A stretch of 64,000 bases of DNA, from contig NZ_QNGB01000001.1 of the NCBI RefSeq assembly GCF_003298505.1, positions 186,001 through 250,000 on the forward strand. The letters run 5' to 3'. Shown one piece after another: positions 8,379 through 53,825 of the stretch. The position numbers and the translations under genes were made by a program. The first letter of the stretch is position 1, and each line of letters begins with the position of its first letter. The DNA is from Roseovarius sp. TE539 (GTDB lineage: Bacteria > Pseudomonadota > Alphaproteobacteria > Rhodobacterales > Rhodobacteraceae). A model generated the notes under the pieces. That model searched no databases. It was not told the origin of the DNA and saw only the letters and a program-made list of their open reading frames with translations.

Positions 8379-9110
8379 TTACTTTGCCCCATTTCCACCC
8401 TCAAGCTGCTTGGCCGCGGCAATGGCACCCGGCAGTGACGCCAGCATGGCTTCGGCATCCGGTCGTTCGGCCACCATGATCAGACGAACATGCTCTTCAG
8501 GGATCGCCGCGGCGGCCCTGGGGCTTATGGCAATACCGACCACTGGAGCGCGAATTGGCCGGATCTCGAAGAACAGCTGTACCGACCGTGGCGAAAAAAA
8601 CGGAATGACAACCGGGCTTCGACCTTCAAGCAGGCCTCTCAGCTCTGCTGAGGGCGCCATGGGCACCTGGCAATAAAGCACGGCTTCGCGCGTCTCGCGG
8701 CCCGCGCAGGAAAGCCGCGCGGCGACATCCCCCGCGGCATGTTCTCCTCGCACATGCAAAAATGGTCCCGCACAACCATTCTGCAGGATCATGGAAACCA
8801 ATGCGTCCGCATCTCCGGCGGCCGAGATCACCCGGAATCCAGCCTCGCGCGCGGACGCCGCCGTGGAATCACCCACGGCGAAGCATGGAATGTCGCGCCG
8901 CGACGTGCCTGCCGCGAGCGCCGCCAAACCGTTCCCTGACGTGACAATCAGCGCGCGGATTTCCGACAGGTCCGGAAGTGTCCCGTCCTGCACGATCCTC
9001 ATCAGCGGGGAATGCAGAATCGGCTGGCTCTGTCCAAGGGACTTCCGGACCTGATCCGCGAATGCGGAACCGGCCGGATCGGGGCGGGTAATGATGATCC
9101 TGGGCGTCAT
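8379..9110 (-). CDS. hemD: Uroporphyrinogen-III synthase
   Basis: HemD closes and isomerises hydroxymethylbilane to uroporphyrinogen III in tetrapyrrole synthesis. The product has 243 residues from the ATG at 9110 and begins [14 protein letters not shown], the usual opening of the family (TRP motif). Further matches are [29 protein letters not shown] and a second domain with [15 protein letters not shown]. The family diverges fast in sequence, so the call also rests on context: mic60 and hemY follow on the same strand and tsaD is divergent, with a 76-bp shared promoter region. hemC is not in the window. Confidence 0.87.
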
Positions 9111-42265: not shown

Positions 42266-43186
42266 TTATTCCCGTTGGCCACTGAGCAACCGGCAAAGCG
42301 TGTCAAGCTCGTCCAGCGTGGCGTAGCTGATACGGATCTGGCCGGACTCCTTTTCAGGCTTGTGGTCAACCGCAACCTTCATACCAAGATTGGCCGAAAG
42401 ATCACCTTCCAAAGCCTTGGTATCCGCATCCTTGGACGGCTTCCCTGCACCTGCATCGCTTTTGCCGGTTTCCGTAAAGACGTTTCCCACACCGTCTTTC
42501 GCCATCTTCTCCGTCTCCCGAACGGAAAGACCCTTCTTGATGACACGTCGCGCCAGTGAGGCCGGATCATCTGCGGTGACCAACGCTCTGGCATGGCCGG
42601 CGGAGAGCTTGCCCTGGCGCAAGAAATCCTGAACTTCTTCGGGCAGGTGCAGCAACCGGACGGAGTTGGCTATGTGGCTGCGGCTCTTGCCCAGAACGTC
42701 GGCGAGCTTTTCCTGTGTATGCCCGAACCGGTTCATGAGCTGTGAAAAACCGGCAGCCTCTTCAATCGGGTTGAGATCGGCGCGTTGAATATTCTCGATG
42801 ATCGCAACCTCAAGGACCTCGGTATCGTCGAAATCTCGAACGATTACCGGAACCTCGTGTTGCTGCGCTATTTGCGCTGCGCGCCACCTCCGTTCACCGG
42901 CGACAATTTCGAACTCGTCCTCATGGCCGGGGCGTGGTCGTACGATCAACGGCTGGATAACACCTTTTTCGCGAATTGACTTCGCAAGATCCTCCAACTG
43001 CTCCTGCTCGAAACTGCGCCGCGGTTGTTCCGGATTCGGGCTGATGCGTTCGATCGGTGCCATCATGTCCGGCCGGCGCTGCGATGGCTCGGCGTGTTCG
43101 GCGGAGTTGCCTCCTTCGGTCACATCCGACATCAGTGCGGATAAACCGCGTCCAAGCCCGCGTTGTCTGGTTTTCCTGTCTGCCAT
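42266..43186 (-). CDS. parB: Chromosome partitioning protein ParB
   Basis: ParB binds parS, spreads as a CTP-dependent clamp and drives origin segregation. The 306-residue protein has the CTP-binding box with GERRWRAAQIA, the box II region VIENIQRADLNPIEEA, a helix-turn-helix (QEKLADVLGKSRSHIANSVRL, about 150-170) and a C-terminal dimer domain after a disordered linker (about 225-260). It starts at ATG 43186, 14 bases after the parA stop. Two perfect parS sites are 1.4 and 3.3 kb upstream. Confidence 0.97.
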   Translation of the reverse strand: MADRKTRQRGLGRGLSALMSDVTEGGNSAEHAEPSQRRPDMMAPIERISPNPEQPRRSFEQEQLEDLAKSIREKGVIQPLIVRPRPGHEDEFEIVAGERRWRAAQIAQQHEVPVIVRDFDDTEVLEVAIIENIQRADLNPIEEAAGFSQLMNRFGHTQEKLADVLGKSRSHIANSVRLLHLPEEVQDFLRQGKLSAGHARALVTADDPASLARRVIKKGLSVRETEKMAKDGVGNVFTETGKSDAGAGKPSKDADTKALEGDLSANLGMKVAVDHKPEKESGQIRISYATLDELDTLCRLLSGQRE

Positions 43187-43200
43187 CTTCGCTTCCTTGA

Positions 43201-44010
43201 TTACGCGGCTGCGCGGGATTGATTGCGGATGAGTTCCGCTGCAAGCGCGCGATAAGCTTCTGCCCCGCGCGACGAGGTGTCATACTTAAGCACCGGTAGC
43301 GCATAGGAAGGTGCCTCGCTCACACGAACATTCCGGGGAATGAGGGTTCGGAACACGAGGTCGCCCAAGTTTTCACGCGCATCCTGCTCCACTTGTGCCG
43401 ACAGGTTGTTGCGTGCGTCGTACATGGTGAGGACAATTCCCTCGATCCGCAGATCTGGGTTGGCCGTCTGCCGAACCTCGCGAATGGTTAGCATGAGCTG
43501 GGACAAGCCCTCCAATGCAAAAAATTCGCTCTGAAGGGGCACAAGAACAGAATGCGCTGCGACCATCGCGTTGACAGTGAGCAGGTTCAACGATGGCGGA
43601 CAATCAACAAGAATGAAGTCGAGTGCGTAGGTATCAAGCGCTGGTTGCCGCAATGCATCATGTAAAAGGAAACTTCGCTTTTCATTGCTGATCAGTTCGA
43701 TATCGGCCGAACTCAGATCGACGGTGGCCGGTATGATCAGAAGCCTTTCATCTCCGGTCTCGCGAACGATATCGCGCAGCGGAACGTCATCCAGAAGAAG
43801 ATCATAGGTCGTCGCCTCACGGTCACCCGCCTCGACGCCGAGGCCTGTAGAGGAATTGCCTTGCGGGTCCAGATCGACGATCAGCACCCGAAAACCTGCT
43901 TCGGCAAGTGCGGCGCCGAGATTGATTGTCGTTGTCGTCTTGCCGACACCGCCTTTCTGATTGGCAATGGCAATGATCCTTGGACCTTGAACGAGGATCG
44001 GGTCAGGCAC
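43201..44010 (-). CDS. parA: Chromosome partitioning ATPase ParA
   Basis: ParA is the Walker-type ATPase that moves ParB-parS complexes. The 269-residue protein has the deviant Walker A NQKGGVGKTTTTINLG, the FILVDCPPSLNLLT Walker B region and the LDPQGNSSTGLG switch motif. It starts with GTG at 44010 (no ATG available) and overlaps the end of rsmG by eight bases, so it is coupled to it. Same operon as mnmG-rsmG-parA-parB. Confidence 0.97.
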   Translation of the reverse strand: MPDPILVQGPRIIAIANQKGGVGKTTTTINLGAALAEAGFRVLIVDLDPQGNSSTGLGVEAGDREATTYDLLLDDVPLRDIVRETGDERLLIIPATVDLSSADIELISNEKRSFLLHDALRQPALDTYALDFILVDCPPSLNLLTVNAMVAAHSVLVPLQSEFFALEGLSQLMLTIREVRQTANPDLRIEGIVLTMYDARNNLSAQVEQDARENLGDLVFRTLIPRNVRVSEAPSYALPVLKYDTSSRGAEAYRALAAELIRNQSRAAA

Positions 44011-44617
44011 GGGAAACTCCTTTTATGGTAAGGATGACGGGGCCGATTTCAGTTATACTTTTATCAACGTGATACGTGAAATTCCACGTTCTTTGCGCGT
44101 CGTCCACCTCTTTTCGCCAGGCTGCCCCCTTTTGAAAAAGCGCTATACCCGTGCTGGCAAGGTGTTGTTCTGCGAATGGAAGAAGTTCCGTCAACGGTGC
44201 GAGCGCCCTTGCCGAAAGGACATCTGCGTTGAGCGCCGGTATGTCTTCGATTCTGGCCGCTCGAACCTCCGCGGAGATCCCCGTTTCGCGTATCGCTGTG
44301 CGCAGGAAGGCGCATTTGCGCCCGTCGCTTTCGACCAGCGTCAAACGCCGTGGCGAGTTGCGTTCGGAAGCCAGAATTCCAACAACCAGCCCGGGAAAGC
44401 CACCGCCCGATCCCAGATCAGCCCAGTGATCCACCGGATGTTCAACGAAATCCATTAGCTGAGCGCTATCAGCAAGGTGGCGGGTCCAGAGCTGCGGCAG
44501 CGTGTTTTTGGAGACAAGGTTTATCCGGGGATTCCATCGCTCCAAAAGGGCCGCCAGCCGGTAAAGCTTGTCGAGTGTTTCACGTGAAACATCCGCGAAC
44601 GGATCTGGCCCGCTCAT
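44003..44617 (-). CDS. rsmG: 16S rRNA (guanine-N7) methyltransferase RsmG
   Basis: RsmG (GidB) makes m7G527 of 16S rRNA. The 204-residue protein has the SAM-binding motif [14 protein letters not shown] and [15 protein letters not shown], then [12 protein letters not shown] perfect parS site (44576-44591) is inside its first codons and encodes part of DVSRETLD. Its ATG overlaps the mnmG stop by four bases (ATGA). Confidence 0.96.
44576..44591. promoter_or_regulatory. parS: parS site (in rsmG)
   Basis: TGTTTCACGTGAAACA, a perfect 16-bp match to the conserved chromosomal parS palindrome. It lies in the 5' coding part of rsmG, about 1.4 kb from parB and 5.1 kb from the candidate origin. Confidence 0.93.
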
Positions 44618-46488
44618 GCTGAATCTTTATGTTTGCCCTGCCGAATACATGAGAGAATCAGCGTCAGAGCAGCAGGAGTCATCCCGTCTATCCGCCCGGC
44701 TTGGCCCAGATTCCCCGGCCTTGTTTGTTTCAGCTTTTCCTTGAGCTCATTCGACAGCCCGGTTACCGCCGCATAGCTAAAATCGTCGGGAATCACCTGC
44801 GATTCATCGCGCTGAAGACCGGCGACATCCCTTTTTTGCCGTTCTATGTAGTTCGCATACAACGCCTCACGTTCCAGTTGGCGCCGGCTCTCTTGATCAA
44901 TGACCGACCATTCCGAATTTAGGACTGTGATCTCATCGAAACCCACTTGCGGCATGCTCAGAAGTTCCAGGCCGTTGCGGCGCGATCCATCCTGGCTGAC
45001 CTTGAGCCCGAGATCAGCCAGTGCATTAGCGGAATAGCTTTCGCTTTGCAGCATGCGCCTTGCCGCCTCAAGACGGTCCATTTTTTCCTCGAACGCCGCT
45101 TTTCGGGCTTCACTGACACATCCAATTTCAATCCCCGACGGCGTCAGCCTCTGATCGGCGTTATCCGCACGAAGCGATAATCGGAACTCGGCGCGGGAGG
45201 TGAACATACGATACGGCTCGGACACGCCACGCGTGACCAGATCATCAATCATCACGCCGATGTAGCTGTTGCTACGGCTGAAGCTGATGCCATCTCGGCC
45301 GGCCACCGCCAGAGCGGCGTTCAGCCCGGCCACCAGCCCTTGTGCTGCCGCCTCTTCATATCCGGTTGTGCCGTTGATTTGGCCAGCCAGCAGTAACCCC
45401 GGAATACCCTTCACCGCCAAACAGGAATCCAGAGCGCGTGGATCGACGAAATCATACTCGATGGCATATCCGGGTTGCAGAATCGTTGCATTCTCCAGCC
45501 CATTGATCGAACGCACATACGCTTCCTGCACCTCGACCGGGAGGGACGTCGATATTCCATTCGGGTAAATGACGTTATCCGAAAGGCTTTCCGGCTCCAG
45601 AAATATCTGGTGAGCTTCCTTGTCGCCAAAACGCACGACCTTGTCCTCGATGGACGGACAGTATCGTGGGCCGACACCGTCGATGTGACCGCCATACATA
45701 GCCGACCGTTCGAGGTTACTTTTGATTATATCGTGCGTACGCTCATTGGTATGGGTGATGCCGCAGGATACTTGTTGGCATTTCGGAGCCTCGGACAGAA
45801 ATGAAAACATAACCGGATCGTCGTCCGGTGCCTGCATCTCCAGGCCAGACCAATCGATGCTCCGCCCGTCCAACCGCGGCGGTGTGCCGGTCTTCAGACG
45901 ACCAAGACTCAATCCGAAGTCATCTATGCGTTCGGCCAGTCGCACCGAAGGTTTGTCACCCATACGCCCGCCGGGACGCGATACGTCACCTATGTGGATG
46001 ACGCCCCGCAGAAACGTCCCCGTAGTCAACACGACACTTGCCGCGCTTATCCGAGACCCGTCCGCCAGCACGACACCCCGCACGCAACCGGCTGTAACAA
46101 TGAAATCCGCCACCTCGCCCTCGATTATTTCGAGATTGGGCTCTCCCTCAGTCCGCGACAACATGTACTTGCGATAAATATGCCTGTCGGCCTGAGTACG
46201 TGGTCCCTGAACCGCCGGACCCTTACGGCGATTCAACAGACGAAACTGGATCCCAGCCGCATCCGCAGCTTTCCCCATCACGCCATCAAGCGCATCAATC
46301 TCACGAACAAGATGACCTTTACCAAGACCACCAATCGCCGGGTTACACGACATGACACCGATACCTTCTCGGTCAAGTGTGACCAACGCTGTCGCCACAC
46401 CAAGCCGGGCCGCTGCGTGCGCTGCTTCGGCGCCGGCATGTCCACCCCCGATTACCACGACGTCAAAATCCTGTTTCACGTGAAACAC
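44614..46488 (-). CDS. mnmG: tRNA uridine 5-carboxymethylaminomethyl modification enzyme MnmG
   Basis: MnmG (GidA), with MnmE, modifies the wobble uridine of tRNAs. The 624-residue FAD protein has the dinucleotide motif [18 protein letters not shown] at the start, [26 protein letters not shown] and the C-terminal MnmE-binding domain. The start codon is GTG at 46488; the first codons (VFHVKQ) are themselves a perfect parS site. Its stop overlaps rsmG. It stands three bases after mnmE. Confidence 0.97.
46472..46487. promoter_or_regulatory. parS: parS site (at the mnmG start)
   Basis: TGTTTCACGTGAAACA, perfect 16-bp parS, covering the first codons of mnmG. It is about 3.2 kb from the candidate origin. 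The mnmG GTG start codon (46488-46486) overlaps its edge. Confidence 0.93.
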
Positions 46489-46491
46489 TCC

Positions 46492-47778
46492 TCACTTACC
46501 CAGGCAGAAGCTCGAGAAAATTTCGTCAAGTACAGCTTCGACATCTACGCGTCCTACCAGAGAATCAAGCGCCCGAACACCACGCCGCACCTCTTCGGCA
46601 GCCAGTTCGGTTTCCGTTGCGCCGGACGAAAGACAATTCATGGCCGCGTCCAGTGCTTCAACGCCTGCACGCATACCCTGCGCGTGGCGAGTCCGCGTTG
46701 CCAAACCGGTTCCAGCATTCTGCGCGCCCAGCTTGTCGGCAATCTCACCCAACAGCTGGTCCACGCCTTCACCTGTCAACCCCGACACGGATGCGCTTCT
46801 CCCCGGAAACAGGTCACCCTTGCATTGACGCACAATATCACTCGGCCCCGGTTCCAGAAGCGGTGGCGCGCCGCCATCCGTAAGAAAAACCCTCAGGTCA
46901 GCGTTTACAGCACGCTCACGAGCCCGCTCGATACCGATCGCTTCGATCTCTTCACCACCAATCCGGAGCCCCGCCGTATCGAGAAGCATCACCGGCAAGC
47001 CCTGGATGTCCATCCTTACCTCGATAACGTCACGTGTCGTACCCGCAAGCGAAGACGTTATTGCAGCCTCCCGGCCTGCGAGACAATTCAAAAGCGTCGA
47101 TTTCCCAACATTGGGCGCGCCCACGATCGCCACCTCGAACCCGGCTCGGATACGCTCAGCATGACCAACATTTGAAATTTCCTTGCTCAGGCTCCCTCTC
47201 ACTGCCTCGATCAGCTTGGTCACTTCGGGCGTAACATCAACCGGTACATCCTCATCGACGAAATCGATGGTCACCTCAAGAAGGGCCGCCGCCCGCACCA
47301 GCGCCTCTCGCCATTCGTCTGCACGCCGGCCAAGATCGCCGGCCAGTACCCGTGTTGCCTGACGCCTTTGCGCTTCGGTTTCAGCCGCAATAAGATCTGC
47401 CAAACCCTCGACCTGCGCAAGGTTCATCTTCCCATTTTCCATTGCGCGCCGGGTGAATTCTCCAGGATCGGCAACTCTTAGGCCCGGAATCCCGCTCAAC
47501 ATCTCCAAGACGGCAGATATTACAGCCGGGCTGCCGTGAACATGGAACTCCACCACCTCCTCGCCGGTAAAACTTCGGTTCTCGGAAAAGGTCAGGACCA
47601 ACGCCTCGTCTATCCGGCCGCCGTCGGGGCGCCGCAACACACGAAGCGATGCCACCCTTCTTGCCGGCACGTCACCGGCACACTGCTTGCACGCCTCGAA
47701 CGCATCAGGCCCGCTTACCCGAATGACAGCGACGCCGGCCATGCCGCGTGCAGAAGCAACCGCGAATATCGTATCCAA
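46492..47778 (-). CDS. mnmE: tRNA modification GTPase MnmE
   Basis: MnmE is the GTPase partner of MnmG. The 428-residue protein has the N-terminal formyl-THF-binding domain ([21 protein letters not shown]), a G domain with [18 protein letters not shown] and a modified NKxD region, and the C-terminal CLGK motif needed for activity. The NKxD region is not obvious in the sequence ([11 protein letters not shown] in its place), worth a check. The start is a TTG at 47778; no ATG is suitably placed. Confidence 0.95.
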
Positions 47779-47806
47779 GACTGTTACCCTTACCTCGCCT
47801 CGGCGG

Positions 47807-49078
47807 TCAGGTATTCATGGAGTCAAAGAATTCCGAGTTTGTCTTTGTCTGCTTCAACTTCGACAAAAGAAACTCGATCGCATCCGTCGTCCCCATCGGG
47901 TTCAGGATACGGCGCAAAACGAACGTCTTCTGCAAGTCGCTCTTTTCGATCAGCAGATCCTCTTTCCGCGTCCCGGACTTCAAGATGTCGATGGCCGGGA
48001 AAACTCTCTTGTCAGCGATCTTGCGGTCAAGAATGAGTTCGGAGTTGCCTGTGCCCTTGAACTCCTCGAAAATGACCTCGTCCATGCGGCTACCGGTATC
48101 GATGAGGGCTGTTGACACGATCGTCAGGGATCCGCCCTCCTCGATATTCCGGGCTGCCCCGAAAAACCTTTTGGGGCGCTGAAGCGCGTTGGCATCAACG
48201 CCACCGGTCAACACCTTTCCCGACGACGGAACAACCGTATTGTAGGCCCGGCCAAGCCGCGTGATGGAGTCCAGCAGGATCACGACATCACGTTTGTGTT
48301 CCACAAGCCGTTTCGCCTTCTCGATGACCATTTCCGAAACAGCCACGTGCCGCGTCGCGGGTTCGTCGAAGGTCGAGCTGATGACCTCTCCCTTGACGCT
48401 TCTCTGCATGTCCGTCACTTCTTCGGGCCGTTCGTCGATCAGCAGAACGATCAGGTAACACTCCGGGTGGTTCTTCTCGATGCTTGCCGCTATGTTCTGC
48501 AGGATAACCGTCTTCCCGGTCCGCGGAGGCGCAACAATCAGGGACCTCTGGCCTTTCCCGATCGGCGCGACAAGATCTATCACCCGTGCAGACTTGTCCT
48601 TGATCGTCGGATCCTCGATTTCCAGCTTGAACCTTTCGTCCGGATACAGCGGCGTAAGGTTGTCGAATGCGATCTTGTGACGGGCTCGCTCCGGATCCTG
48701 AAAGTTGATCTGGCTGACATTGGTAAGCGCAAAGTACCTTTCACTCTCTTCAGGCTGTTTCATCTCACCTTCTACGGTGTCACCTGTCCGGAGCGAATAG
48801 CTCTTGATGGTTTCGGGGGACACGTAGATATCGTCGGGGCCCGGCAGATAGTTCGCCTCCGGCGATCGCAGGAAACCGAACCCGTCCTGTAACACCTCGA
48901 GGACACCATCCCCGAAAACTGTCCAGCCGTCCTCCGCCCGTTCCTTCAGGATCGAGAACATCATCTCGCCCTTGCGCATCGTCGAGGCGTTCTCGATCTC
49001 CAGATCTTCGGCCATCGTTAGGAGTTCCTTGGCGCTATGCGCCTTGAGGTCGGACAGGTTAAGACGATCTTCGGACAT
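47807..49078 (-). CDS. rho: Transcription termination factor Rho
   Basis: Rho is the RNA-dependent ATPase of factor-dependent termination. The 423-residue protein has the N-terminal Rho_N domain ([19 protein letters not shown]), the RNA-binding cold-shock-like domain ([21 protein letters not shown]), Walker [14 protein letters not shown] and the Q/R-loop region. Length and order are normal, without the long inserts of some phyla. The ATG at 49078 gives [11 protein letters not shown]. Confidence 0.97.
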
Positions 49079-49162
49079 TGGAACAACCCTCGGCAAACGC
49101 GTGTCGGCGCATACGGCTATGGAGAATGGAAAAGGATAAACCCGGACGAGCTTCCGGCCGCG

Positions 49163-49191
49163 TGCATACAGCGTCGGAATGACCGCGTCAA
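49163..49191 (-). promoter_or_regulatory. Candidate rho promoter
   Basis: On the minus strand TTGACG (49191-49186) is 17 bases from TATGCA (49168-49163), about 85-110 bases ahead of the rho ATG. Good -35, weak -10. The 119-bp gap also leaves room for a rho leader. Confidence 0.35.
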
Positions 49192-49197
49192 CGTACC

Positions 49198-49647
49198 TCA
49201 GAACCGGACGACGACGGAAAGGACGATCACAACCATCAAAAGCGTGGGAACCTCGTTCATCATCCGGAACTGTCGTCCTGTCATTTCATTGGACCCGGTA
49301 ATGAAATCCTTGCGACGACGGCCCAGCCAATGGTGAAACCACGTCATGGCGACAATACCCGCGCCCTTGGTATAAGGCCACACCGCATACCAGTCCACGA
49401 CACCGGGGGTAGCGACCAGCAACAAACCGAAGATCCATGTTGCGACCATCGCGGGGTTCATGATCACCCTGAGAAGCTTCCTCTCCATTTTCTGAAAAAT
49501 GACATCCAGCGGCTCCCCGGATGTTGTTTCCTCGACGTGGTAGACAAACAACCGAGGGAGGTAGAACAGACCTGCCATCCAAGCGATCACCGACATGATA
49601 TGCAGTGCCTTGGTCCAGGGATAGAAAAGGATCAGGATTTCAATCAT
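49198..49647 (-). CDS. hemJ: HemJ-type protoporphyrinogen IX oxidase (UPF0093)
   Basis: HemJ oxidises protoporphyrinogen IX in bacteria that lack HemG and HemY-type oxidases. The 149-residue protein has four predicted membrane spans and the conserved elements [25 protein letters not shown] and [14 protein letters not shown], with the His residues that bind heme. The window's other hemY is not an oxidase, so HemJ is probably the functional enzyme here. It starts at the edge of the candidate origin. Confidence 0.92.
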
Positions 49648-50065
49648 GCTGTGCCTCCGCCCAACCTTATGGACCCCCTTAAATAAAAAGAAAATGGAAT
49701 AGGAAGATGTTTTTGTAGGAGTACCGGTTGTCTGTGGATTATCAGGTTCTCCGCATGTTGGTCCACAGAGGTTTTACTTGGGGATAAACTATGGGATGAA
49801 TCAGCCCTGGGTTTGTCAAGATCATATAAAACACTTATATCGCAAAAGGTTATACAACAGAGAGGTATTTCTCTACATCGGGATAAATCACGTAACCCAC
49901 AGCGCCTCCCGTACCTTCACCACGGCTGATTTATACCGATCCACATGGGCATGACATCCCTGGATACAGCCGGAGCCCTGCCGGAACTCCAGACCGACAA
50001 GCAGGGATGGAAAGAGTTCCCCACGGGCGTTAGGACGTCCGCATATCATACACGGAGTTCTCCAC
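49648..50065. other. oriC: Candidate chromosomal replication origin (oriC)
   Basis: A 418-bp gene-free stretch, visibly AT-richer than its surroundings (49677-49716 and about 49818-49860). It holds several DnaA-box-like 9-mers: TAATCCACA (minus, 49733-49741), TTATCCCCA (minus, 49779-49787) and TTCTCCACA (50058-50066), each one mismatch from TTATCCACA; and four with two mismatches (49759-49767, 49878-49886, 49893-49901, 49937-49945). A CcrM site GAATC is at 49798-49802. The gene order (hemJ, rho, mnmE left; maf, aroE, coaE, dnaQ right) matches the region that surrounds the origin in Caulobacter. Genes on both sides point away from it. Not proven by sequence alone. Confidence 0.7.
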
Positions 50066-50665
50066 ATGACAGAACGCCTTATCCTCGCGTCCGGGTCCGC
50101 AGCCCGGTCCATGCTCCTGAGCAACGCGGCGTTGAAATTCAGTGCGATCCCCGCCAAGGTGGACGAGCACATGATGAAAAAAGCGCTCCTGGCGGACGCC
50201 GCCACACCGCGCGATATCGCGGATACACTGGCGGAAATGAAGGCACGGCGGGTGAGTGAACGATATCCCGGTTCACTGGTCCTGGGATGTGACCAGATAC
50301 TGGAGTTTGACGGGCAGGTCTTGAACAAGCCGCAAACACCTGAAGATGCGATCGGGCAATTGAAGCTCATGCGCGGAAAAAACCATGACCTCCTGAGCGC
50401 GGCGGTCATATGTGCGGACGGGGCACCGATCTGGCGGCATGTCGGTGTGGTGCATATGGAGATGCGCAAATCATCGGATGACTTCCTGGAGTCATATGTG
50501 AGTCGCAACTGGACGAGCATTCAGGAAACCGTTGGCGCATACAAGCTTGAGGAGGAAGGGGTGAGGCTTTTCTCACGTATCAAAGGAGATTATTTTTCCG
50601 TCCTTGGATTGCCCCTACTCGAAGTCCTGTCATTTCTGGCAGTGCGAGGAGAAATTGAAACATGA
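50066..50665 (+). CDS. maf: Maf/Ham1-like nucleotide pyrophosphatase
   Basis: Maf proteins hydrolyse non-canonical nucleoside triphosphates. The 199-residue protein starts MTERLILASGSAARSMLLSN with the family ASGSxxRxxLL motif, and has LVLGCDQILEFDGQVLNKP and ETVGAYKLEEEG. It borders the candidate origin and starts the coupled run maf-aroE-coaE-dnaQ: its stop overlaps the aroE start (ATGA). Confidence 0.92.
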   Translation: MTERLILASGSAARSMLLSNAALKFSAIPAKVDEHMMKKALLADAATPRDIADTLAEMKARRVSERYPGSLVLGCDQILEFDGQVLNKPQTPEDAIGQLKLMRGKNHDLLSAAVICADGAPIWRHVGVVHMEMRKSSDDFLESYVSRNWTSIQETVGAYKLEEEGVRLFSRIKGDYFSVLGLPLLEVLSFLAVRGEIET

Positions 50666-51495
50666 CCGAGCAGAAAATTCCCTTGGCGGGTGTCATCGGC
50701 ACGCCTGTCGCACATTCGAAGTCACCGCAGCTTCATCGTCATTGGCTGAACACCCATGGCATTACCGGGTACTACATACCGATGGACGTCAGCACGGATG
50801 ATTTCGAGACTGTCCTCAGAACACTGCCGAAAGCAGGTTTTGTCGGTGTCAACGTAACGGTGCCGCACAAGGAGACCGCGCTGGCCCTCGCGGATCTTGC
50901 AACCGACCGTGCAACCCTCATCGGTGCAGCAAACACGTTGATCTTCCGAAAGGATGGCAAGATACATGCCGACAACACGGATGGTTATGGATTCATCGAA
51001 AACCTGAAGCAGTCCGGCCTCGCCTGGAATCCGGCTTCGGGCCCCGCGGCGGTTCTGGGGGCTGGTGGCGCGGCCCGTGCCGTGGTTGCGTCCCTGCTTG
51101 ATGCGGGCGTTCCAGAGATCCTGATCTCGAACCGAACGCGCGTCCGGGCCGAAAGCCTGCAATCTGATTTCGGCAAACGGCTCAAGATCTACGACTGGGT
51201 TCAAGCCGGGAACATGCTGGAAGATGCGACAACCGTGATCAACACCACGTCACTCGGCATGCTTGGCCGGCCGCCTCTGCGTGTTCCCCTTGATGGGTTG
51301 CGCAAGGGCGCCGTGGTCACCGATCTGGTGTATGCACCGCTGAAAACGCGCTTCCTTGAGGTGGCAGAGGAAATGGGCTGCCACACCGTGGATGGCTTGG
51401 GCATGCTGCTCCATCAGGCGGTCCCCGGATTCGAGCGCTGGTTCGGAACACGCCCCGAGGTTGACAGTGCAGCCCGGGCGGCGGCGCTTCGATGA
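50662..51495 (+). CDS. aroE: Shikimate dehydrogenase
   Basis: AroE reduces 3-dehydroshikimate in aromatic amino acid synthesis. The 277-residue protein has GTPVAHSKSPQLHRHWL at the start (substrate site SxS), NVTVPHKE with the catalytic Lys, and the NADP motif VLGAGGAARAVVASLL with SNRTRVRAE. Its end overlaps coaE by four bases (ATGA). Confidence 0.96.
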   Translation: MTEQKIPLAGVIGTPVAHSKSPQLHRHWLNTHGITGYYIPMDVSTDDFETVLRTLPKAGFVGVNVTVPHKETALALADLATDRATLIGAANTLIFRKDGKIHADNTDGYGFIENLKQSGLAWNPASGPAAVLGAGGAARAVVASLLDAGVPEILISNRTRVRAESLQSDFGKRLKIYDWVQAGNMLEDATTVINTTSLGMLGRPPLRVPLDGLRKGAVVTDLVYAPLKTRFLEVAEEMGCHTVDGLGMLLHQAVPGFERWFGTRPEVDSAARAAALR

Positions 51496-52085
51496 CGTTC
51501 TGCCTTGGTCTTACAGGCTCCATCGGAATGGGCAAATCCACTACCGCGGCAATGTTTGCCGAAGAGGGCTGTGCCGTCTGGGATGCGGATGCCGCGGTTC
51601 ACCGCCTGTATGTGCCCGGAGGCGCTGCCGTGGAGCCACTGGCCGATATCCTGCCGGATGCGATTTTCGGTGAATGTGTCTCGCGGGAACGGCTTCGTGA
51701 TCTTATACGTGACGACCCGACGGTCTTGCCCAAGGTCGAGGCCGTGGTTCATCCGCTGGTGGCTGAGGACAGGAAGAATTTCCTGCAGCAGACGGATGCC
51801 GATATCGTGGTCTTCGACATACCGCTGCTTTTCGAAACCGGAGCCGAGGCGACCATGGATGCGGTTGCCTGCGTGACGGTTGCCCCCGAAATTCAGCGCC
51901 AGCGCGTACTGGCCCGGCCGGACATGACCGAAGCGCGGTTCGAGGCGATGCTTTCAAAACAGATGCCTGACAGCGAGAAAAGGCAACGCGCGGATTACCT
52001 GATCGTGACGGATACCATGCACCACGCGAAACAGCAGGTACATGACATCGTGAAAAAAATAAGGACAGAACAACAAGATGCGTGA
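51492..52085 (+). CDS. coaE: Dephospho-CoA kinase
   Basis: CoaE phosphorylates dephospho-CoA, the last step of CoA synthesis. The 197-residue protein has the P-loop [11 protein letters not shown], the [10 protein letters not shown] segment, [12 protein letters not shown] and [20 protein letters not shown]. Its end overlaps dnaQ by eight bases, so translation is coupled. Confidence 0.96.
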
Positions 52086-52776
52086 AATCGTTCTGGATAC
52101 AGAAACAACGGGACTGGATCCTGAACAAGGCGACAGGATCGTGGAAATCGGTGCAGTGGAACTCCTGAACCACATGCCCACCGGCAGAACTTTCCACCAA
52201 TACATAAACCCCGAGCGGGACATGCCGCAGGAAGCCTTCGAAGTGCATGGTCTTGGCACCGAGTTTCTGAGGGACAAGCCGCGTTTCGCAGGGATCGCGA
52301 ACGACTTCCTCGAATTTATTTCGGATGCGAGGCTGGTGATTCACAACGCCGCATTCGACATGAAATTCATAAATGCGGAATTCGGTTGGTTGAAGTTGCC
52401 GGCGCTGCCCTGGGAAAGGGCGGTGGATACACTGGCCATCGCACGTCGGCGATTCCCCGGATCTCCTGCGTCACTCGATGCCTTGTGCCGACGCTTCGGA
52501 ATCGACAATTCCAGCCGTACGCTTCACGGCGCCTTGCTGGACTCCGAGATCCTTGCCGAGGTGTATCTCGAGCTTATCGGTGGCCGACAGCCCGACTTCG
52601 CCCTTTCCGGAACAATCGGGCAAAACCGGGGCGCGTCCGCAGGCCAGGAATGGCGCGCCCGTCCGCGGCCCAAGGCGCTTCCGTCAAGGGTGCATCCGGA
52701 AGAGGCGTCGGCTCATGCCGATTTTGTCGCCTCTATGGGTGAAGATGCCCTTTGGCGAAAAATCGAAACCGGTTGA
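52078..52776 (+). CDS. dnaQ: DNA polymerase III epsilon subunit
   Basis: The proofreading 3'-5' exonuclease of the replicase. The 232-residue protein has Exo[20 protein letters not shown], Exo[14 protein letters not shown] and ExoIII in [20 protein letters not shown] (DEDDh). The C-terminal tail (about 180-232) is the polymerase-binding, less conserved part. dnaQ directly beyond the origin edge matches the Caulobacter order. Confidence 0.96.
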
Positions 52777-53277
52777 TCAGGCGGTGCCGGCCGTCTCAGC
52801 CTCTTCGGCCTGCCGGCGTGCGATCTCGTTACGGTAGATCTGTACGAAGTCGATGTTTTCCAGATTGAGCGGCGGAAAGCCACCGTCCCGCGTGACATCG
52901 CTGACGATGCGGCGCATGAACGGGAAAATCATGCGCGGACATTCGATCAGAAGAAAAGGATGAAGCTGATCCTGCGGCACGTTCTCGACATGGAAAACCC
53001 CCGCGTATTCCATTTCGAGTATGAACAGGGTGTCCTGGCTTTCCTTGTCCTTGGACGTGACCCGAAGTTTGGTCGTCACCTCGTACTGGTGCTCGGTACT
53101 GCGCTTCTTGGCATCGAGGTTGACCTCAACGGAGACATCAGGCTGGACCTCGCCGCCATGTCCACGTTGTGCTAGCACGTTTTCAAACGAAAGGTCGCGA
53201 ACAAACTGCGTGAGCGTTTGCATCCTGACCTGCGGCTTCTCTTCCGCGCTACCGTTGCCCTGTTCATTCTCGGCCAT
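52777..53277 (-). CDS. secB: Protein-export chaperone SecB
   Basis: SecB keeps precursors unfolded for the Sec system. The 166-residue protein has QTLTQFVRDLSFENVL, HVENVPQDQLHPFLLIECPRMIFPFMRRI and GGFPPLNLENIDFVQIY, all family hallmarks. I prefer ATG 53277 because GGAGAG is six bases ahead; ATG 53283 would put it almost on the Shine-Dalgarno. Convergent with dnaQ, the stops abut. Confidence 0.96.
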   Translation of the reverse strand: MAENEQGNGSAEEKPQVRMQTLTQFVRDLSFENVLAQRGHGGEVQPDVSVEVNLDAKKRSTEHQYEVTTKLRVTSKDKESQDTLFILEMEYAGVFHVENVPQDQLHPFLLIECPRMIFPFMRRIVSDVTRDGGFPPLNLENIDFVQIYRNEIARRQAEEAETAGTA

Positions 53278-53336
53278 CACCATCTCTCCAGGCTATCGAT
53301 GTTCGGGAAATCCTGTAGCAGGCCGGGCAAGGGGCC

Positions 53337-53825
53337 TCAATGCCTTGTCCACCCCGATTGACCGTCCGTTCCTGTCGAGGGCGGGTCGACTTCGTCATAA
53401 TCACCTTCGATTATGCCAGGATCATGCGGACGGTGCCGCCGAGGGTCGCGTCCGGGCGCGGCGGTGGTGAAGGAACGGACCTCGACCCGCGCCCGCAGGT
53501 ACCGGTAGGCCGCCCGCCGAACCCCCGGAACCAGCAATGCGAAACCGACACCATCAGTAAAAAACCCGGGGGTCAGCAAAAGCGCACCGGCGACAAGTAT
53601 CATTGCCCCGTGGACAAGTGCTTCGGACGGATCGGACTGCCGCGAGAAGGACGTTCTGAGATCCTCGAGCGCCATGGCCCCCTGAGCACGCACGAGCACT
53701 GTTCCAAGAATGGCGGTGATGACGACGATGGCAAGAGTGGGCCACAGACCGATAAATCCCCCAACCTGAATGAACAGCGCGATCTCAATCAACGGCACGC
53801 CGAGAAACGCGAAAAATAGCCACAT
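53337..53825 (-). CDS. fxsA: FxsA family membrane protein
   Basis: The 162-residue protein has the FxsA core in its first about 115 residues: three to four hydrophobic segments with GVPLIEIALFIQVGGFIGLWPT and GALLLTPGFFTDGVGFALL. In E. coli the protein suppresses F exclusion of phage T7; the general role is unknown. The C-terminal tail is polar. It is on the minus strand between secB and the divergent timA gene. Confidence 0.88.
   Translation of the reverse strand: MWLFFAFLGVPLIEIALFIQVGGFIGLWPTLAIVVITAILGTVLVRAQGAMALEDLRTSFSRQSDPSEALVHGAMILVAGALLLTPGFFTDGVGFALLVPGVRRAAYRYLRARVEVRSFTTAAPGRDPRRHRPHDPGIIEGDYDEVDPPSTGTDGQSGWTRH

Follow-up and report, generated by a model that had tools for sequence, protein, structure and literature searches.

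The chromosomal replication origin of Caulobacter crescentus (Cori) was identified experimentally in the gap between hemE and a COG1806 gene, a position that has also been proposed for the origin of Rickettsia (PMC1914354). In Bacillus subtilis, DnaA captures two bases of each DnaA-trio, with Asn187 contacting the middle adenine, and Arg202 and Glu228 contacting the guanine (PMC10721633). The published search for elements of the basal unwinding system (BUS) demanded an adenine in the middle of the triplet; no such element turned up in 15% of origins, where deviant motifs lacking this adenine were suspected (PMC8287927). It has also been suggested that homologues of DnaA may recognise different sequences (PMC10721633). 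For the family Rhodobacteraceae, oriCs of 101 strains were assigned with Ori-Finder, using criteria that include nearness to the GC-skew minimum and to parAB; the main text of that work, as available, does not give the flanking genes and does not contain the word “maf” (PMC6699656). In Rhodobacterales, dnaA was reported, at coarse resolution, to be conserved close to the origin, and parAB was suggested as an anchor for placing the latter (PMC8116508). In the literature that we searched, mostly main texts open without subscription, the hemJ–maf gap was not found named as the Rhodobacteraceae origin, and alphaproteobacterial DnaA-trios were not found described; the one paper containing both “DnaA-trio” and “alphaproteobacteria” concerns epsilonproteobacterial origins.

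Here, we describe the hemJ–maf gap of Roseovarius sp. TE539 (the host), which lies in an analyzed window of 64,000 nucleotides. In a first-pass annotation of the window, a gene-free gap of 418 bp had been taken for oriC. The gap was borne out, with hemJ on the minus strand on one side and maf on the plus strand on the other, and the orders and names of genes in the minus-strand block (hemJ, rho, mnmE, mnmG, rsmG, parA, and parB) and in the plus-strand block (maf, aroE, coaE, and dnaQ) were confirmed with NCBIfam and Pfam (Table 1). An SecB gene follows the dnaQ block on the minus strand. The claimed correspondence to the position of the Caulobacter origin, with rho and parAB on one side and maf and aroE on the other, holds, as do the differences that had been listed. 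hemE does not border the gap, being located ~216 kb away on the same contig (C1:18291-19298); a PF03618 search of the host assembly for the pyruvate-phosphate-dikinase regulator gene gave no matches; and dnaA is not beside dnaQ or secB but on another contig, C13. The flanking pair of the Caulobacter type, hemE and COG1806/PF03618, is therefore not found around the host gap. Based on the sequence elements, conservation, parS sites, synteny, and sampled GC skew presented below, we consider the hemJ–maf gap to be very probably the chromosomal replication origin, with a probability of about 0.94.

The GC content of the gap is 48.6%, compared to 60.8% for the window. Nine-mers were scored against the DnaA-box consensus TTATCCACA, and expectations were obtained from 1000 dinucleotide shuffles of the gap. 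Eight nine-mers with at most two mismatches were found, versus 1.5 expected, a number that none of the 1000 shuffles reached, and the gap is the densest 420 bp for DnaA-box-like nine-mers in the whole window. Two boxes with at most one mismatch (at 49733-49741 and 49779-49787, both on the minus strand) lie wholly inside the gap, versus 0.15 expected (p ~0.01), while a third one-mismatch box overlaps maf by one base, its final A being the A of the maf ATG. There are thus nine boxes in all when the maf-start box is included, three of which have at most one mismatch; the earlier count of seven boxes, three of them with one mismatch, was right for the three and slightly low for the total (eight in the gap and one over the maf start). 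Both AT-rich patches noted previously are present. The one at 49678-49717 is strong, being nearly the most AT-rich 40-mer of the window (its AT content is reached by ~3 in 100,000 of the window's 40-mers), and the one at ~49798-49887 is weaker, with 65-67% AT in 60-bp windows. Two properties expected of an oriC, a cluster of DnaA boxes beyond chance and an adjoining AT-rich unwinding element, the latter judged by base composition, are found in the gap. The enrichment extends to the family: in 83 dereplicated gaps, there are 2.17 boxes with at most one mismatch per gap, versus 0.13 in shuffles. An Rfam search of 47000-53500 gave no matches up to E 5, and DNA folding of the gap was unremarkable (z −1.27).

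Table 1. Features of the hemJ–maf region (positions in the 64,000-nucleotide window).
Feature	Position	Strand	Remarks
oriC gap (probable), hemJ/maf intergenic	49648..50065		418 bp; spacer size kept in family loci
hemJ	49198..49647	-	TIGR00701
maf	50066..50665	+	TIGR00172, PF02545
aroE, coaE, dnaQ	50662..52776	+	NCBIfam and Pfam
rsmG, mnmG, mnmE, rho	44003..49096	-	NCBIfam
parA	43201..44010	-	Pfam AAA_31 and CbiA; NCBIfam ParA matches below cut-offs
parB	42266..43186	-	TIGR00180 above cut-off
Perfect parS site (TGTTTCACGTGAAACA)	44576..44591		site scan
Perfect parS site	46472..46487		site scan
Conserved left half: AT-rich stretch, triplet tract, and first DnaA box (R1 match)	49674..49743	+	E 4.1e-12
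AT-rich stretch, presumed duplex-unwinding element	49678..49717		77.5% AT
DnaA-trio-like tract (GAA GAT GTT TTT GTA GG)	49703..49719	+	common family form GGATGATGATTTTGTAGG
DnaA box TAATCCACA (1 mismatch)	49733..49741	-	adjoins unwinding element; aligned form TGTGGATTA in many relatives
Weak DnaA-like box TTCTCCGCA (2 mismatches)	49747..49755	+	nine-mer scan
Weak DnaA-like box TGGTCCACA (2 mismatches)	49759..49767	+	nine-mer scan
DnaA box TTATCCCCA (1 mismatch)	49779..49787	-	nine-mer scan
Weak DnaA-like box TTCTCTACA (2 mismatches)	49869..49877	+	nine-mer scan
Weak DnaA-like box TTATCCCGA (2 mismatches)	49878..49886	-	nine-mer scan
Weak DnaA-like box TAACCCACA (2 mismatches)	49893..49901	+	nine-mer scan
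Weak DnaA-like box CGATCCACA (2 mismatches)	49937..49945	+	nine-mer scan
DnaA box TTCTCCACA over maf start codon (1 mismatch)	50058..50066	+	same place in 84/105 ATG-start loci

Searching 61 family genomes for Maf yielded 30 loci. In 24 of them, the hemJ–maf spacer measures ~364-429 bp; the spacer ends were extrapolated from alignments, and some extrapolated starts are no start codon. In the other six, there is no hemJ match, the next match is rho at 489-559 bp from maf, and the spacer is kept. Two landmarks were seen in the alignment. At ~350 bp before maf, an A-rich purine stretch is followed by GGATGATGATTTTGTAGG or a variant, ~20 bp, and the DnaA box TGTGGATTA; the second landmark is the DnaA box ending on the A of the maf ATG. 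The left element scored above threshold in 101 of 109 loci in a motif scan. A profile of 73 positions, R1, was then trained on 60 left elements out of the 83 that remained after dereplication; the window is itself one of the training rows. The sole reported R1 match in the 3.7 Mb host genome is the window. Of the 199 family genomes, 152 have a single match at an E value of 0.01 or lower, and 47 have none; scoring was restricted to a maximum of 24 first-look candidates in each genome, with strict filters, so that weak extra matches could be missed.

Since R1 was trained on sequences upstream of maf, the location of its matches is tested only by other genomes. Among 46 matches in the first 61 genomes, 42 are on the same strand, 281-343 bp upstream of maf; three are farther upstream, at 1.08-1.17 kb, and are separated from maf by a PF03618 gene (G001, G014, and G052), and one is between hemJ and aroE, at a locus where no maf was found (G020). 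All 18 of these R1-matched genomes whose loci are outside the 30 aligned ones, some of which could share species with training loci, have the match at the hemJ/maf locus (14 directly upstream of maf, three with PF03618, and G020). The origin of a large family would be placed in a single gap, with R1 matches found in 152 of 199 genomes independently of skew, which would be of use for replication-rate estimates and genome rotation.

The persistence of the element bears on the reading that the gap is mainly a divergent promoter or regulatory region of hemJ and maf, on which DnaA acts as a transcription factor. The two genes do diverge, and a box with at most one mismatch covers the maf start in 84 of 105 family loci (the 109 loci minus four with no ATG at that place), so DnaA may affect maf expression besides replication. 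However, the spacer persists in the six of 30 loci that have no hemJ match, and the element persists where PF03618 is the right neighbour (three genomes) or where there is no maf at the locus (G020). We therefore regard a mainly regulatory gap as extremely unlikely, while an origin at this site may have an added regulatory role.

How the proposed origin relates to Cori was studied in genomes of the class. R1 matched 40 of 192 class genomes, three of which belong to the family; in the 37 non-family genomes, many matches are weak, and several of these genomes have multiple matches. Nine non-family loci were fetched. In seven of them, hemE is beside the element, with PF03618 and maf opposite in six and maf alone in one, and in the other two none of the tested genes is present. 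Ten non-family genomes with R1 have PF03618 among the matches listed; R1 adjoins it in seven and does not in three. With PF03618 as the starting point, the gene was found in 78 of 114 class genomes, and 28 of 30 fetched loci have a divergent hemE upstream, at 237-491 bp in 26 of the 28. The host has no match to this family (Kinase-PPPase), although most of those class genomes have one. Because PF03618 is kept beside the element in G001, G014, and G052, and hemE is kept as well outside the family, we call the gap a descendant of a Caulobacter-type origin with another gene layout. The likeness to Cori, whose side of the comparison is taken from the literature, consists of DnaA boxes, an AT-rich stretch, and parS within kilobases, and relatives with hemE and PF03618 hold the element between these genes, with maf beyond. 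In contrast, hemJ takes the place of hemE here, and no PF03618 gene was found. The differences look as if the origin had stayed in place and genes around it had been lost or moved.

A further difference concerns regulator sites. Five CtrA sites and one IHF site are described for Cori (PMC1914354), whereas a scan of the window gap with consensus motifs gave no CtrA-like site with at most one mismatch and no IHF match. In the 83 family gaps, the same motifs occur above expectation (CtrA sites, 0.84 per gap versus 0.36 in shuffles; IHF, in nine gaps versus 3.0), while GANTC sites are not enriched (1.65 versus 1.76 expected).

The two perfect parS sites of the host are 3.2 and 5.1 kb from the gap, with 0.03 matches of at most two mismatches expected. 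Scans of 210-392 kb in each of six relatives gave one or two perfect parS sites per genome, all of them ~3-6 kb from maf. One-mismatch parS sites of G029 and G044 are likewise at maf, and a two-mismatch site of G003 is ~27 kb off.

GC skew along host contig C1 goes from negative values on the left to positive values on the right, with a nearly flat course through most of the window. This is consistent with an origin in the gap but broad; the cumulative minimum falls ~18 kb away from it, at window coordinate 67,727. GC skew, which the first-pass annotation had proposed as a check over the whole chromosome, was sampled in six relatives with mixed outcomes: the switch is near maf in two (G012 and G003), G050 is coarse but compatible, G008 and G029 are displaced, and G044 has no clear switch. 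In G012, 10-kb skew values are near or below zero at 1.08-1.18 Mb and positive at 1.18-1.26 Mb, with maf at 1.18 Mb; the cumulative minimum, at 1.163 Mb, is in the flat part, ~17 kb from maf. Positive samples then prevail in this genome as far as 3.08 Mb (one, at 2.40 Mb, is negative), and from 3.42 Mb onward the samples are negative. A 60-kb block of G003 has its minimum 2 kb from maf; in this genome, left samples are mostly negative (one is positive), and right samples are positive. In G050, whose samples are noisy, one sign change falls in the stretch that spans the contig end from 4.11 Mb to 0.124 Mb, and the reverse change falls at 2.1-2.4 Mb. The switch in G008 is near 2.74 Mb, ~170 kb from maf, and G029 is mostly positive from 3.22 Mb although its maf is at 3.52 Mb, a displacement of some 300-580 kb. 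The R1 element is at maf in G008 (G029 has no R1 match), and parS is at maf in both, which would fit a rearrangement. The G008 region at ~2.74-2.91 Mb of contig C3, where the skew switches off the origin locus, may mark such an adjacent rearrangement.

In many bacteria, the origin adjoins a gene cluster of the dnaA-dnaN-recF-gyrB type. On C13, the host dnaA is followed by genes whose translations look like dnaN, recF, and gyrB, and it could be argued that the real origin is there, the hemJ–maf gap being a conserved regulatory region. The coarse placement of dnaA near the origin in Rhodobacterales (PMC8116508) speaks against an origin in the gap, and the skew of G050, with dnaA at position 0 and maf at 0.122 Mb, cannot choose between the two genes. 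In G012, however, skew turns positive at maf and stays positive or near zero up to the dnaA sample, 216 kb away, and in G003 the sample taken between these two genes already has a positive value. parS and R1 are at maf, whereas 19 kb fetched from C13 contain no parS and the host's sole R1 match is in the window. The distance between dnaA and maf is 67-631 kb in 11 of 11 relatives (in four, across contig ends, with the chromosome taken as circular). A confirmed origin near dnaA in a relative had been named at the outset as a result that would speak against the gap; it was not encountered in G012. We consider an origin at dnaA very unlikely. The uniqueness of R1, the parS sites, the position between hemE/PF03618 and maf, and the skew near maf in G012 and G003 support the first-pass reading of the gap as oriC.

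By analogy with B. subtilis and Caulobacter, initiation at the hemJ–maf origin may proceed as follows. DnaA would bind the boxes, with the minus-strand box (49733-49741) and the array up to the maf-start box as nucleation sites. A DnaA filament would then grow leftward onto one strand, crossing the spacer and the triplet tract (49703-49719), and would open the AT-rich stretch (49678-49717). Helicases would load, and two forks would leave, one toward maf-aroE-dnaQ and the other toward hemJ-rho-parAB. The new origins would be segregated by ParB bound to the pair of parS sites located 3-5 kb from the gap.

As an origin, the gap is unsurprising in kind and in position; what deserves pursuit is the unwinding tract, together with the DnaA pocket that would read it. 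The tract of the window is a degenerate version of the family tract, which is mostly GATGATGAT, or has GTT or GGT as the third triplet, and continues with TTTTGTAGGG or similar. The order of elements (DnaA box, spacer, triplet tract, and AT-rich stretch) is that of the B. subtilis BUS, and several relatives have tandem boxes and a GGCC-like spacer as well. Unlike in BUS, where the triplet is 3'-GAT-5', the family triplet is mostly 5'-GAT-3' on the plus strand (3'-TAG-5'), the longest A-in-the-middle run of the family mostly begins 17-24 nt from the box (the scan was limited to 24), and the middle base varies in the rest of the class. A BUS test was applied that required a DnaA box with at most two mismatches, a spacer of 0-16, and at least three 3'-NAN-5' triplets. 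The window gave a run of three, which is attained by 15% of its shuffles; positives made up 52% of the 83 family gaps (17% of shuffles) and 23% of 26 gaps from the rest of the class (10% of shuffles).

Period-3 runs, counted anywhere within a gap, gave a different picture inside and outside the family. In the 26 non-family alphaproteobacterial hemE gaps, the mean longest run of G is 5.54 versus 4.37 in shuffles (z 5.9), T is also above shuffles (z 3.5), and A is not raised (3.65 versus 3.71). The trio-middle base was tallied in 22 of these gaps, those with a G run of at least four within 140 nt of hemE, with the last triplet of each run excluded: G occurred 40 times, T 32, A 28, and C 7. As tracts, a script picked the longest G runs, which in a few gaps probably miss the real tract. 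In family gaps, the A-in-the-middle run is 6.45 versus 4.48 (z 16.9) and extends into the A-rich stretch, while G is weakly periodic (z 2.7). Since the A-in-the-middle runs are partly made by the A-rich stretch, the z of 16.9 was not taken as proof of DnaA-trios.

Host DnaA could be aligned without gaps over the pocket region to chain 8btg, which we read, from the agreement of residue numbers, as the B. subtilis complex (PMC10721633). At the positions of B. subtilis Asn187, Arg202, and Glu228, the host protein has Tyr189, Lys204, and Glu230; the glutamate is kept, arginine is replaced with lysine and asparagine with tyrosine, and the base pocket of the BUS type is not found in host DnaA. We fetched 42 alphaproteobacterial DnaA genes, five of which were missed by the parsing pattern, leaving 37. 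Residue 187 is Tyr in 30 of them, Phe in three, His in two, Val in one, and Asn in one, while residue 202 is Lys and residue 228 is Glu in 37 of 37. The aligned position is Asn in chain 2z4r and Gln in chain 1l8q, which we take to be the T. maritima and A. aeolicus proteins, respectively.

This coincidence, seen at the level of the class and with kinship ignored, suggests that the guanine contact has been kept and the adenine contact has changed in step with the tracts, and we hypothesize that the change in the tract is linked to the change in the DnaA pocket. A strict pairing of tract type with residue 187 was rejected: the genome with Asn (G302) has CTACTA beside GGCC, yet a genome with Tyr (G212) also has a canonical run. 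A tentative and, in our judgement, rather doubtful extension is that Alphaproteobacteria use a G-anchored DnaA-trio, with G at every third position and a middle base that is free (A, G, or T, depending on lineage), read by a DnaA with an aromatic residue (mostly Tyr) in place of Asn187 and with Lys and Glu at the guanine-contact positions. Initiator and origin would then have changed their strand-capture code together, and Rhodobacteraceae would have a GAT-repeat version with a longer spacer. A strand-opening element that departs from the textbook form could reveal how DnaA recognises alphaproteobacterial origins, and the natural series of tracts (GAT, GTA, GTG, and GTT), together with DnaAs differing at the residue that contacts the middle base, makes the recognition rule testable with existing assays.

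No perfect DnaA box is present in the gap; the host genome has 18 elsewhere. Three of them fall within 45 bp on contig C15 (33012-33056), between two ABC-transporter genes, the sole such cluster among the 18, and this site could be proposed as the origin in place of the hemJ–maf gap. The chance of this appears negligible to us: the site is in a ~180 bp gap between genes whose translations look like livH and livF, its pattern was absent when 197 further family genomes were examined, and no parS was found in 19 kb fetched around it. The triple box was set aside as an origin. The same boxes (locus L032, ~9013-9057) are perhaps a species-specific DnaA-titration or regulatory site. In two genera, perfect DnaA boxes were also observed in pairs spaced by 76 bp (L180, G005:C11:110207 and 110283; L181, G027:C4:110791 and 110867), in both cases adjoining a gene whose translation looks like exodeoxyribonuclease III.
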